A DNA stretch of 64,000 nt from contig NZ_MARB01000015.1 in the NCBI RefSeq assembly GCF_001715975.1, positions 1 through 64,000 of the forward strand. Reading direction: 5' to 3'. The DNA is from Candidatus Thiodiazotropha endolucinida (lineage in GTDB: Bacteria > Pseudomonadota > Gammaproteobacteria > Chromatiales > Chromatiaceae). The position numbers were made by a program, and so were the translations under genes. The notes below the pieces were generated by a model. The model had not been told where the DNA came from, did no database searches, and saw nothing but the letters and a program-made list of their open reading frames with translations. Of this stretch, positions 46,409-50,711 are shown piece after piece (the first letter of the stretch is position 1; every line of letters starts with the position of its first letter).

Positions 46409-47005
46409 TTATGTATAGGATCTGAGCAACCCCCGCAGCACCCCTTGTATGCTGACCTCTTCCGGCCGATAGACCATCGCACTCATCGAGTGGTTTGCGG
46501 GATGAAGTACAATCTCACCCGGACGCTGCTCGATTCTCTTCAGTGTGGCCTCCTCGTTATGGATCAATGCCACAACGATATCACCATTTTGCGCATGCTC
46601 CTGCTGCTCGATAACCACATAGTCACCGTGGTGGATGCCTTCATCGATCATCGAATCCCCTGACACCTGGAGAACATAACATGGCCCCTTTCCCAGCAAC
46701 TCATCGGGAACCTGCATCGGCTCTGCGTTGGTAATGGCTTCTATAGGCCTGCCGGCAGCGATGCGGCTGAGATAGGGAATACCCTGCTCCACACCGTGCT
46801 CAACTAGGCGAATACCCCGTTTCAGACCTTCCATGGGCTCCACCAATCCCGCCTCAACCAGCGCCTGGATATGTTTGTGCAACGAACCCCGGGATTTCAG
46901 CCCGAGCAACCTGCAGACCTCGTCATAGGTGGGGGCATGCTCATAGTGCTCGCTACAGTCACGCAGGGCTTGGTATATCTCCTGCTGGCGTCGGGTCAAT
47001 TTCAT
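46409..47005 (-). CDS. lexA: SOS repressor LexA
   Basis: LexA represses DNA-damage genes and cleaves itself when RecA filaments form. In this 198-residue protein the cleavage bond is Ala84-Gly85 (RIAAGRPIEA), and the Ser118/Lys156 dyad lies in VSGDSMIDEG and EATLKRIEQ, as in E. coli. The winged helix-turn-helix differs: the recognition helix reads LKSRGSLHKHIQAL (36-49), where E. coli has SPNAAEEH-type residues, so a different operator is expected. AAGGA precedes the ATG. It shares its control region with the divergent helicase gene. Confidence 0.96.
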   Translation of the reverse strand: MKLTRRQQEIYQALRDCSEHYEHAPTYDEVCRLLGLKSRGSLHKHIQALVEAGLVEPMEGLKRGIRLVEHGVEQGIPYLSRIAAGRPIEAITNAEPMQVPDELLGKGPCYVLQVSGDSMIDEGIHHGDYVVIEQQEHAQNGDIVVALIHNEEATLKRIEQRPGEIVLHPANHSMSAMVYRPEEVSIQGVLRGLLRSYT

Positions 47006-47020
47006 TGGGATCCTTGATTT

Positions 47021-47067
47021 GTTCTCCGGTTGTTCTCTATTCTATACCAGGAGAACAGGAAGAGAAC
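47021..47067. promoter_or_regulatory. Symmetric four-half-site operator between lexA and the mrfA-like gene
   Basis: GTTCTC occurs at 47021-47026 and 47032-47037, and its complement GAGAAC at 47051-47056 and 47062-47067. Each pair has an 11-bp period, and both inner and outer pairs are centred on 47044. Two of the repeats are also GTTC-N7-GTTC, the LexA box of alphaproteobacteria. The right-hand sites overlap the helicase ribosome-binding region. Binding by this LexA is inferred from position and symmetry. Confidence 0.7.
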
Positions 47068-47071
47068 AACC

Positions 47072-49471
47072 ATGACTAGTCCCATTGCAGCCTTGACCGC
47101 CACAAAGCCGGTTACCCGACTTGATCCAGCCGACCATTTGGCCGCCAAATTGCGTAGCGAATATGGAGAGCGTATCACAGGCGAACTGATACTCCCCGCC
47201 AAGCAGGGTAACTACCGTCCACTACCCGATGATCTCGACCAGCGACTCACCGATGCCTTGCGAAAGCGCGGGATCGAACGACTCTACACCCACCAGGCTG
47301 CGGCCTGGGAATCGGTACGGAATGGTCGGCATACAGTAATTGTCACCCCTACGGCATCAGGCAAGACCCTCTGCTACAACCTGCCGGTACTGCAGGAGGT
47401 GCTGCAGACGCAGGCCAAAGCCCTCTACCTTTTCCCCACCAAGGCCCTGGCCCAGGACCAGGTGGCCGAGTTGACTGCCCTCAACCAGGCCGCCGAACTG
47501 GGCGTACGTACTTTCACCTTTGATGGCGACACGCCGGGGGATGCGCGCAAGGCGGTGCGGACCCGTGGTGATATGGTGCTCTCAAATCCGGACATGTTGC
47601 ACCAGGGGATACTACCCCACCACACCAAATGGGCTCAGTTTTTCGAATCCTTGCGCTATGTGGTGATCGACGAAATGCATACATACCGCGGCGTATTCGG
47701 CTCCCACGTTGCGAATGTGATAAGGCGTCTGCGGCGTATCTGTCGCTTCTATGGGTCAGACCCTCTGTTCATCCTCTGCTCCGCCACTATCGCCAATCCC
47801 GCCCAACTGGCGCATGAACTGATCGGAGACGAAGTCAATGCAATTACCGAGAGCGGCGCACCGCAGGGAGGCAAGCACCTGTTATTGTGGAACCCGCCGG
47901 TGGTCAATGCCGATCTCGGCATGCGTGCATCCGCCCGTTCCCAGACCACCCGTATTACCAAACTGGCAATGGGTCAGGGGCTAAAAAGCATTGTCTTCGC
48001 CCGCTCACGCCTGATGGTTGAGGTGCTGACCAAATATCTCAAGGATACCTTTGACCGGGACCCCAGACATCCAGCCAGGGTCGCCGCCTATCGTGGCGGC
48101 TACCTGCCCGCTGAACGACGCGCTATGGAACGGCGACTGCGTGAAGGGAAACTCGACTGTGTGGTCTCCACCTCAGCATTGGAACTGGGTGTGGACATCG
48201 GCGCCCTCGATCTCTGTGTGCTCAACGGTTATCCCGGCACCATTGCCGCCACCTGGCAGCGCCTGGGACGCGCCGGCAGACGCCAGCGCACTGCGGTTGG
48301 CGTGCTGGTGGCCAGCAGCCTGCCGCTGGATCAATACATTATCCGTAATCCCGACTTCTTCCTTGGCGCCTCGCCGGAACAGGCACGTATCGATGCCGAT
48401 CAGTTACTGATCCTGCTTGATCATGTTCGCTGCGCCGCCTTCGAACTGCCGTTCAGGGATGGAGAGCGGTTCGGCGACCAACCGCTGAGCGAGTTACTCG
48501 CCTATCTGGAGGAACATGGCATCCTGCACCGGGAGGCGGATGAGTGGCACTGGATCAGCGACAGCTACCCCGCCAACAGTATCAGCCTGCGATCGGTGGC
48601 GGAGGGTAATTTCGTGGTGGTGGATACTACCGGTGGCGGAAAAACCGTGATTGCCGAAGTCGACTACAGTTCCGCACCGATGACCATCCATGAAGGCGCC
48701 ATCTACATGGTTCAATCCACCCCCTATCAGGTTGAGCGGCTCGATTGGGAGGGACGCAAGGCATTCGTTACCCGCACCCGAGCCGATTACTACACTGATG
48801 CCATAGACTATACACGCCTTAAGATTCTGGAGTCTTTCGAGGAGCACGAATATGCCCGTCATGGCGTGGCCCAAGGTGAGGTTCATCTTGTCAAGCGCAT
48901 AACCGGCTACAAAAAGATTCGCTACTACAGTCACGACAATGTGGGCTACGGCAAGATCGAGCTACCGGATCAGGAGATGCACACCACCGCCGTCTGGTGG
49001 CAGATAAACCCACAGGCGCTGGAGGCTGCATTCCACTCACGTCAGACTGCCCTGGACGGCTTTCTTGGCGCCAGCTATGCACTTCATATCGTCGCCACCA
49101 TGCACATGCTTTCCGAACCCGGAGATATCGGCAAGGCGGTGGGTGACGGCAACGCCCGCTGGTTTGCTACAGTGCATGCCGGTGGACGGGGAGAGTTGCG
49201 CAACAGGGAGGACCAGCGAATTGATCCGGCGCAGCTGGATCGCTTCACTCCCACGCTGTTTCTCTACGACAACTATCCTGGAGGCATCGGACTCTCATCA
49301 CCGCTTTGCGAGAGCCGTGAGACCATCGTTCATGAAGCGAAGCGGCTTGTCGTTGACTGCAGCTGTAACCATGGCTGCCCCAGCTGCATCGGCCCTATCC
49401 TGGCCAGCGACGAGCTGCGGGGCTACTCGCCCAAACAGGCCGCACTCGAAGTGCTTTCACTCCTGATGTAG
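47072..49471 (+). CDS. DEAD/DEAH helicase with C-terminal DUF1998-type zinc motif, MrfA (YprA)-like
   Basis: This 799-residue SF2 helicase has Walker A TPTASGKT (92-99), DEMH box (200-203), the motif VI QRLGRAGR, and a C-terminal four-cysteine cluster (Cys763, 765, 769, 772 in DCSCNHGCPSCIGP) that in Bacillus MrfA binds metal. MrfA works with the MrfB exonuclease in excision of mitomycin C adducts, apart from UvrABC. The ATG at 47072 is preferred over an in-frame TTG at 47030. An exonuclease gene of MrfB type follows after 22 bp, so the pair is conserved. SOS control by the shared operator is inferred. Confidence 0.92.
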   Translation: MTSPIAALTATKPVTRLDPADHLAAKLRSEYGERITGELILPAKQGNYRPLPDDLDQRLTDALRKRGIERLYTHQAAAWESVRNGRHTVIVTPTASGKTLCYNLPVLQEVLQTQAKALYLFPTKALAQDQVAELTALNQAAELGVRTFTFDGDTPGDARKAVRTRGDMVLSNPDMLHQGILPHHTKWAQFFESLRYVVIDEMHTYRGVFGSHVANVIRRLRRICRFYGSDPLFILCSATIANPAQLAHELIGDEVNAITESGAPQGGKHLLLWNPPVVNADLGMRASARSQTTRITKLAMGQGLKSIVFARSRLMVEVLTKYLKDTFDRDPRHPARVAAYRGGYLPAERRAMERRLREGKLDCVVSTSALELGVDIGALDLCVLNGYPGTIAATWQRLGRAGRRQRTAVGVLVASSLPLDQYIIRNPDFFLGASPEQARIDADQLLILLDHVRCAAFELPFRDGERFGDQPLSELLAYLEEHGILHREADEWHWISDSYPANSISLRSVAEGNFVVVDTTGGGKTVIAEVDYSSAPMTIHEGAIYMVQSTPYQVERLDWEGRKAFVTRTRADYYTDAIDYTRLKILESFEEHEYARHGVAQGEVHLVKRITGYKKIRYYSHDNVGYGKIELPDQEMHTTAVWWQINPQALEAAFHSRQTALDGFLGASYALHIVATMHMLSEPGDIGKAVGDGNARWFATVHAGGRGELRNREDQRIDPAQLDRFTPTLFLYDNYPGGIGLSSPLCESRETIVHEAKRLVVDCSCNHGCPSCIGPILASDELRGYSPKQAALEVLSLLM

Positions 49472-49493
49472 TGTCTACAGGTCACAACCGACA

Positions 49494-50711
49494 ATGACAC
49501 TCGGAACAAAACTCAGCCGTCTGAGGGCACTGAAAAAGGATCGAGGGCAACAACCTGTTGCATCTGCGACGGACCTGCGACATCGCTTGGCACGGATCGA
49601 CCGGACACGACCTTCTGATGATTCGAAAGGGCGGCGACAAGCGTCAATAGAGGAGAGACTGGCAAAACAGCTGAAGGGATACCAAATCAGCGATGGTCTG
49701 ATCAAGATACAGCGCCATATACCCCTGCATGGATCAATGGGCCGCCATCCTCTCTCGCTACTGAAACAACAACCCGTCCTGCCCGGAGATGGGGCGGCGG
49801 CCAACCGCCGCCAGGTCTACTTCGATACCGAAACCACCGGACTCTCAGGGGGCAGCGGCACCCTCGCCTTCCTGTTCGGTTTTGCAGTGGTTGAGCAGGA
49901 GAACCTTGAGACAACCCAGTACCTGATCACCCGCTTTGCCGGCGAAAATGCCATGCTCGAGAGGATTAACAGTATACTCAGCCCAGATGATCGGCTGGTG
50001 AGCTATAACGGCAAGTGTTACGACATCCCCCTGATGAATACCCGCTACCGCATGCGGAATATACCGGCCATATTGGATCGGCTGCCTCACCTGGACCTTT
50101 TGCATGCCGTGCGCCGACTGTTTGGCCGCACTTGGCCGGATTGCCGGCTGATGACGCTGGAACAGCGCCTGCTCGGCCTGAAACGACACAACGACCTGCC
50201 GGGTTCGGAAGCCCCGGAAGCCTGGTTCGATTGTGTAACAACGGGCGCTACGGTGCGACTCGCACGGGTGGTGGATCACAATTTTCAGGATATCATCTCT
50301 CTCCCCATGGCCCACGCTGTCCTGGCTGGGGTGATTGAGCAACCGGAACGCCATGACGCAGACATTGCGGCCCTCGCCCGCTGGTTGACGGATAGCGACA
50401 AGACTGCCGCCTATACCTTGTTATTGCGCCAGCGGCAGAGACTGTCAATCAGTGGTATGAGGTTACTGGGTCGACTAGCCAGGCGTTTCGGCAACTGGGA
50501 GTTGGCAGTGGAGATATGGGAAGCCTTATCCCGGGGCGGCTGTCGACAAGCTACAGAACAACTTGCCAAATATCATGAGCACATCAGCAAGGATCTGGAG
50601 CATGCAAAATATTATTGTGAGCTGCTCCCCGTCGACGATGAGCAACGGCGTCGGTTGAACCGAATCTTAATCAAGCGCTATCGTCAGGGGATACAACCAG
50701 CACTGCATTAG
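49494..50711 (+). CDS. DnaQ-like (DEDDh) exonuclease, MrfB (YprB)-like
   Basis: The 405-residue protein is a ribonuclease H-like exonuclease: Asp111 and Glu113 in YFDTETTGLSGG, Asp177 in VSYNGKCYDIPLM, and His262/Asp266 in VVDHNFQDIISL. Its C-terminal 100 residues are helical and TPR-like (TLLLRQRQRL, NWELAVEIWEAL), as in Bacillus MrfB. In the Bacillus pathway MrfB is thought to degrade the strand unwound by MrfA. The TAG stop lies in a palindrome shared with the convergent gene. Confidence 0.88.
   Translation: MTLGTKLSRLRALKKDRGQQPVASATDLRHRLARIDRTRPSDDSKGRRQASIEERLAKQLKGYQISDGLIKIQRHIPLHGSMGRHPLSLLKQQPVLPGDGAAANRRQVYFDTETTGLSGGSGTLAFLFGFAVVEQENLETTQYLITRFAGENAMLERINSILSPDDRLVSYNGKCYDIPLMNTRYRMRNIPAILDRLPHLDLLHAVRRLFGRTWPDCRLMTLEQRLLGLKRHNDLPGSEAPEAWFDCVTTGATVRLARVVDHNFQDIISLPMAHAVLAGVIEQPERHDADIAALARWLTDSDKTAAYTLLLRQRQRLSISGMRLLGRLARRFGNWELAVEIWEALSRGGCRQATEQLAKYHEHISKDLEHAKYYCELLPVDDEQRRRLNRILIKRYRQGIQPALH

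Follow-up and report, generated by a model that had tools for sequence, protein, structure and literature searches.

The window analysed in this study, a stretch of 64,000 nucleotides from Candidatus Thiodiazotropha endolucinida, lies on contig 15 of a 4.49-Mb genome and carries lexA back to back with a helicase-exonuclease gene pair. On the minus strand, lexA1 (46409-47005) encodes a LexA repressor of 198 amino acids. On the plus strand, the mrfA-mrfB unit (47072-50711) encodes a superfamily 2 (SF2) helicase of 799 amino acids (mrfA, 47072-49471) and a DEDDh exonuclease of 405 amino acids (mrfB, 49494-50711). The divergent lexA and helicase genes are separated by a gap of 66 bp (47006-47071), exactly as given in the initial annotation of this DNA. 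The closest named relative of the helicase, at 98%, is that of a gammaproteobacterium living in symbiosis with the clam Ctena orbiculata; records named Candidatus Thiodiazotropha, from which those of the same genome were possibly excluded, reach up to 80%.

The three protein identities proposed in the initial annotation, a LexA, an MrfA-like helicase with a four-cysteine C-terminus and an MrfB-like DEDDh exonuclease, are borne out by profile and structure matches. LexA1 scores 167.6 bits against TIGR00498 (cut-off 110.95) and combines the winged helix-turn-helix LexA_DNA_bind domain with Peptidase_S24 (Pfam). Its cleavage dipeptide Ala84-Gly85 and its catalytic dyad Ser118/Lys156 are the same in all 56 LexA1 rows of the thinned set. 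MrfA possesses DEAD and Helicase_C domains, an HRQ1-type winged helix and the MrfA zinc-binding (MZB) domain PF09369, the last with 47 bits against a cut-off of 24.2 (Pfam). Its best match among solved structures is MrfA/YprA of Bacillus subtilis (6znp; E 1.3e-223, 747.6 bits), aligned in two stretches (residues 42-685 and 726-794), and its cysteines 763, 765, 769 and 772 are kept in 45 of the 46 lexA-divergent loci described below, the remaining one showing a gap. Against TIGR03817, a hypothetical equivalog for DECH helicases, the protein scores 646.3 bits, which is below the curated cut-off of 874.1, and it is therefore not placed in that family. Like the Bacillus protein, MrfA may have a 3′-5′ helicase activity and a role in the repair of mitomycin C damage.

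MrfB matches RNase_H_2 (Pfam) and carries the intact catalytic residues Asp111, Glu113, Asp177, His262 and Asp266. It aligns with the solved MrfB structure 8un9 at E 2.9e-25 when searched singly and at 1.3e-47 with a family profile. The DEDDh residues and the wedge leucine are found in 43/43 MrfB proteins of the lexA-divergent loci. With the family profile only, positions 292-377 of the C-terminal region match a designed TPR (E 5.4e-7), and TPR_7 is detected in 6 of 18 relatives (E up to 1); no TPR match was obtained with the window protein taken alone.

Within the gap, GTTCTC is found at 47021-47026 and 47032-47037, and GAGAAC at 47051-47056 and 47062-47067. Both pairs are centred on 47044, so that the exact dyad symmetry claimed earlier for the four half-sites is real. 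The operator (47021-47067) is a double dyad made of two inverted direct repeats, each arm of which is better described as GTTC-N7-GTTC. The arm nearer lexA, GTTCTCCGGTTGTTCTC (47021-47037, plus strand), is an exact match to GTTCTC-N5-GTTCTC, and the arm nearer mrfA reads GTTCTCTTCCTGTTCTC on the minus strand (47051-47067). On the lexA side, the operator starts 15 bp upstream of the ATG (47005), and on the mrfA side it ends 4 bp before the ATG (47072), where it covers a possible Shine-Dalgarno sequence, AGGAAG. Contrary to the initial annotation, which had it overlapping both starts, it reaches neither ATG. A strict scan of the lexA-mrfA gap found no sigma-70 promoter.

The hexamer GTTCTC alone is not enriched in the window (30 observed, 29.1 expected), which indicates that the signal lies in the arrangement and not in the hexamer. 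Indeed, GTTCTC-N5-GTTCTC occurs twice in the window, against a single occurrence in total over 200 first-order resamplings of it, and the double dyad occurs once, against none over the 200. A chance origin of the operator, which we considered, is ruled out by these resamplings and by reversed-pattern controls. When one mismatch is allowed, the whole genome holds 18 GTTCTC-N5-GTTCTC sites, compared with 13 matches of the reversed control, and most of these sites are thus noise. An arm model, whose alignment omitted 16 of 64 distinct arms, returned the lexA-proximal arm as its top match in the genome, that arm having been included in its construction. The strict CTGT-type pattern of E. coli SOS boxes has 4 matches in the genome, two palindromes each being counted on either strand, and its reversed control has 10; there is thus no sign of an E. 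coli-type regulon.

We then asked how far the operator is conserved at mrfA loci of relatives. From 110 collected loci (30 + 80), the 90 with distinct promoters were kept, the 20 with identical promoters being dropped; one further locus (L214), which comes without upstream DNA, was left out. A divergent lexA is found in 46 of the 90 loci and 44 are without it. Between -300 and +90 of mrfA, GTTC-N7-GTTC or its complement is present in 45/46 lexA-divergent loci (0.39 expected) and in 5/44 of the others (0.41 expected). The initial annotation had proposed looking for the half-sites beside lexA and mrfAB in relatives, and the operator is indeed found in all 45 distinct loci where this type of LexA is divergent. 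Where both arms are present, the distance between their starts is 31-34 bp in all but one of 31 lexA-divergent loci and 40 bp in the remaining one.

Of the 44 loci that lack a divergent lexA, eight have a good weight-matrix site at mrfA and 36 have none. Four of the eight (L063, L064, L074 and L090) are strict matches whose arms belonged to the matrix training set, and the arms of the other four (L061, L070, L071 and L072) lie outside it. Since 14 of the 44 loci have less than 1.5 kb of upstream DNA covered, the absence of lexA at these loci applies to the covered DNA. A further mrfA (L182/L204) has the full dyad and no lexA within the roughly 1.5 kb covered.

Within the class, 23 of 369 genomes contain strict double dyads, 24 in all, and the reversed control pattern gave none. 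All but one of them (23/24) flank lexA1, mrfA, a second LexA gene (lexA2) or the Y-family polymerase paired with lexA2; two of the 24 belong to the present genome, one in this window and one at its lexA2 operon. When 23 dyad loci were annotated, the window included, seven lay at lexA1, of which six also adjoin mrfA, and one at mrfA alone; 13 lay at lexA2, 11 of these with the polymerase in the covered DNA, and one at the polymerase alone. The sole strict dyad of the class without lexA, mrfA or polymerase (L177:1501-1553, G057) stands at the start of an open frame of 76 amino acids without family assignment.

MrfA itself is found in 18/369 genomes of the class at E up to 1e-120, and 10 of the 15 matches with at least 60% identity and upstream DNA have a divergent LexA1. 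A phylum-wide draw gave MrfA in 17 of 398 genomes. At the 16 other loci of this draw, neither a double dyad nor a lexA directly beside mrfA was found, which argues for a lineage-specific linkage to LexA; one of them (L211) has a lone GTTC-N7-GTTC at -241. At two of the 16, from Magnetococcales, lexA lies 1.2-1.8 kb upstream on the same strand (partial in L278/L279, whole in L123/L124).

The same box is also associated with recA. In the family, recA was matched in 53 of 57 genomes, and we examined 30 recA loci. Of the 30, 11 have the strict GTTC-N7-GTTC box upstream of recA, and 17 have a site by weight matrix, located between -31 and -91. With LexA1 presence assigned by hand at an identity of at least 52%, the site is found in 16/21 genomes with LexA1 against 1/9 without it (Fisher P 0.0016), so that the box expected beside recA in relatives is present in most of the LexA1 genomes examined. 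The recA of the present genome (L163) has no box upstream by strict pattern or matrix, this genome being one of the 5/21 LexA1 genomes without one, and in G007, of the same genus, recA has only a weak site at -181. The local regulon may therefore be small, or recA may be controlled otherwise.

In the present genome, the box stands at lexA1, at lexA2-polymerase and at an integron integrase gene, intI. Integron integrases are described as LexA targets in a previous study (PMC3108266). The second-best match of the arm model in this genome lies 50 bp upstream of intI (TIGR02249; L015:596-2028, contig 25); as 150 of 1605 candidates were scored, the list of regulon members is incomplete. The integrase has 460 amino acids, including an N-terminal extension of about 150. 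Of the eight nearest orthologues whose start is intact (identity of 63% or more, its own gene included), seven have a matrix site at -52 or -55; four of these sites are strict and three degenerate, and for two of the degenerate ones 1 and 3 of 60 resamplings did as well. For the integrases of the genus, the first placement of starts gave a strict box in 4/25, with 14 of the 25 starts projected and misplaced, and 5/30 loci had no upstream DNA. Once the starts of the 14 shorter integrases were re-placed, one strict site was found, together with five weaker sites near the start that were reached by 0/60 resamplings.

The second lexA gene of this genome, lexA2 (L164:5764-8081, contig 16), encodes a protein 44% identical to LexA1 and carries the same GTTC-N7-GTTC double dyad. 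It is the first gene of an operon-like row that also contains a Y-family polymerase of 433 amino acids and a protein of 139 amino acids for which no NCBIfam model matched, and 13 further genomes of the class draw also have lexA2 with the double dyad. On a quick tree of LexA proteins, in which long rows are uncertainly placed, the LexA2 sequences cluster in a single supported group that lies among the LexA1 rows and includes the only LexA3 row. In G007, a third LexA gene (L167:6685-12580) is divergent from genes that resemble imuA, imuB and dnaE2 (names given by eye) and is without a GTTC-N7-GTTC box; the imuB-like gene has weak matches to polymerase IV models.

Other types of LexA are also coupled to mrfA. 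L122, from Parasulfuritortus, is the sole lexA-divergent locus without GTTC-N7-GTTC; its LexA is 34% identical, and the gap holds two CTGT-N8-ACAG boxes. In L141, L142 and L144, mrfA is immediately preceded, on its own strand, by the gene for a third type of LexA, which is itself preceded by two GAACGNNCGTTC palindromes, that is, GAAC-N4-GTTC boxes. L141 and L142 are two contigs of one MAG, which thus has two lexA-mrfA copies, and L144 comes from a MAG labelled Betaproteobacteria. A study of Sideroxydans reportedly described a noncanonical betaproteobacterial LexA motif, GAACG-N2-CGTTC, to which these palindromes correspond; it differs from the operator of the window, and the gene order in the three loci is tandem instead of divergent. 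The Aquisalimonas mrfA (L111) has a LexA-type box, CTGTCTTTTTATACAG, at -45 and no lexA in the 5.9 kb covered upstream. In Nitrosospira, L147 and L136 have a single GAAC-N4-GTTC at -108 and -220, respectively, which could be chance. On a quick FastTree phylogeny of MrfA, in which 30 of 79 inner branches are open, the lexA-linked state is scattered and many changes are needed to explain it. L122, L141, L142 and L144 are placed near the LexA1-linked row L110, so that an exchange of lexA next to an mrfAB that stayed in place is as possible as an independent coupling.

The operator behaves as an SOS operator should, since it is conserved at lexA-mrfA, is found before some mrfA genes without lexA in the covered DNA and also occurs at recA in most of the LexA1 genomes examined. 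The back-to-back position of lexA and mrfAB around one shared, doubled LexA-type switch, seen in clam symbionts and in many bacteria related to them, suggests that MrfAB is turned on by DNA damage. We consider it very probable, judging from sequence comparisons, that lexA1 and mrfAB together form a compact module for SOS repair, in which an MrfAB excision system is repressed by LexA and induced by damage. Dimers of LexA1, the presumed binding protein, would occupy both inverted GTTC-N7-GTTC repeats and shut off lexA1, through autoregulation, together with mrfAB. Upon DNA damage, RecA filaments would trigger self-cleavage of LexA1 between Ala84 and Gly85, and both divergent promoters would then open. 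The MrfA helicase would unwind the DNA and the MrfB exonuclease would digest the damaged strand, resulting in the excision of bulky or cross-linking adducts as in Bacillus.

Three other readings have to be weighed against this SOS-controlled excision module. It could be argued that the operator serves the autoregulation of lexA only, mrfAB being a close neighbour that is not meaningfully regulated. Indeed, autoregulation is common among LexA genes, the two genes share a short gap, the box is missing from many mrfA genes of other loci, and in L100, L104, L149 and L150 the box lies nearer to lexA than to mrfA. However, the operator has two full arms, the second abutting mrfA, and the near-constant spacing of such arms extends to almost all the relatives that have both. 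Moreover, boxes are present at mrfA genes with no lexA in the covered DNA, LexA-type boxes of other kinds occur at mrfA in L111 and L122, and lexA and mrfA form a tandem in L141, L142 and L144. Regulation of lexA alone thus appears highly improbable. It is somewhat unlikely, yet less so, that the site is mainly used by LexA2, or by both LexA proteins through cross-regulation with a shared recognition grammar. LexA2 has the same operator grammar, with the double dyad at its own operon and in the 13 further genomes, so it could occupy the mrfA-lexA1 site; LexA1 and LexA2 also have their helix region, S-[RK]-G-[STV]-x-H-[KR], in common, and the LexA2 group does not appear as a distant lineage on the quick tree. 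The distribution of the dyads argues against such a use: as most lexA1 dyads also adjoin mrfA (6/7) and most lexA2 dyads go with the polymerase (11/13), the two modules stay separate, even if cross-binding may occur.

The third reading concerns the DNA on which MrfAB acts. The two proteins could be under LexA control and process invading DNA or recombination intermediates instead of drug-type adducts. In favour of such a role, PADLOC gave matches to BrxHI, DruE and DrmA, and the wider YprA family includes antiphage helicases, as reported in PMC12458937. Nevertheless, the match to MrfA reaches 747.6 bits against 166.9 bits for the best defence model, mrfB is found in 43/46 lexA-divergent loci, and none of the six genes scanned between 43163 and 51861 contains another defence-type Pfam family, so that we regard this role as improbable.

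Taking these data further, we tentatively propose a broader scenario, which is less likely than not. LexA might have been split into private copies, each tied to one damage tool through the same doubled, inverted operator: LexA1 to MrfAB and LexA2 to the Y-family polymerase, with a third LexA, in the same-genus relative G007, beside the imuA-imuB-dnaE2-like genes and without the box. The four half-sites might bind two cooperating dimers that close two divergent promoters. The linkage of LexA to mrfAB might have arisen, or have been kept through LexA replacement, under three operator grammars, which would make MrfAB a recurrent SOS excision pathway.

The proteins described here are of known kinds, and it is the wiring of LexA to mrfAB that seems new within the literature searched. 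The pair resembles the MrfAB (YprAB) mitomycin C repair operon of B. subtilis in its helicase-exonuclease composition, its domains, its zinc cysteines, its DEDDh residues and, by family profile, its TPR-like C-terminus; it differs in that lexA lies divergent to it, with a double GTTC-N7-GTTC operator in between. To our knowledge, the Bacillus mrfAB operon is not a LexA target. Bacillus MrfAB works apart from UvrABC. The LexA motif of Vibrio is of the CTGT type and thus unlike the GTTC-N7-GTTC box of the present locus. In Vibrio, two studies describe unfA as a LexA-bound SF2 helicase gene induced by mitomycin C (PMC3323433, PMC5963079); it is, as proposed here for mrfA, a LexA-controlled SF2 helicase gene tied to damage survival, and it is a possible precedent if UnfA is a relative of MrfA. 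The scheme in which MrfA unwinds the DNA and MrfB digests the damaged strand was proposed for Bacillus in PMC11194089.

As regards the operator, GTTC-N7-GTTC is the LexA motif of Alphaproteobacteria in PMC8565304 and PMC3323433, with half-site and spacing identical to those within each arm here; the present operator differs from this one in being gammaproteobacterial, doubled and inverted, and in flanking mrfAB. Most Beta- and Gammaproteobacteria seem to use the E. coli motif, according to PMC3323433. In the main texts of the MrfB and YprA-family papers (PMC11194089, PMC12458937), the words LexA and SOS are absent, and a Druantia preprint that names both LexA and YprA draws no link between them in its accessible part. 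No link between LexA and MrfAB was found in the literature searched, which covers the accessible parts of these sources and to which the original MrfAB report does not belong. If MrfAB is SOS-controlled in proteobacteria, a second excision pathway would lie within the inducible damage response of a wide range of bacteria, whether marine, haloalkaliphilic or symbiotic, and SOS reporters could serve to test what MrfAB does. Furthermore, a gammaproteobacterial LexA group with a doubled form of the alphaproteobacterial direct repeat would offer a natural system for studying LexA specificity and the rewiring of regulons.

Two further observations were made on mrfA genes and their relatives. An inverted repeat of the GTCTCA/TGAGAC type, read by eye, precedes mrfA in L210, L212, L284, L288, L289 and L290 (families f13 and f181) and is imperfect in L210 and L284. 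Finally, two genomes, G320 and G434, each have a second MrfA-like helicase, which is 44% identical.
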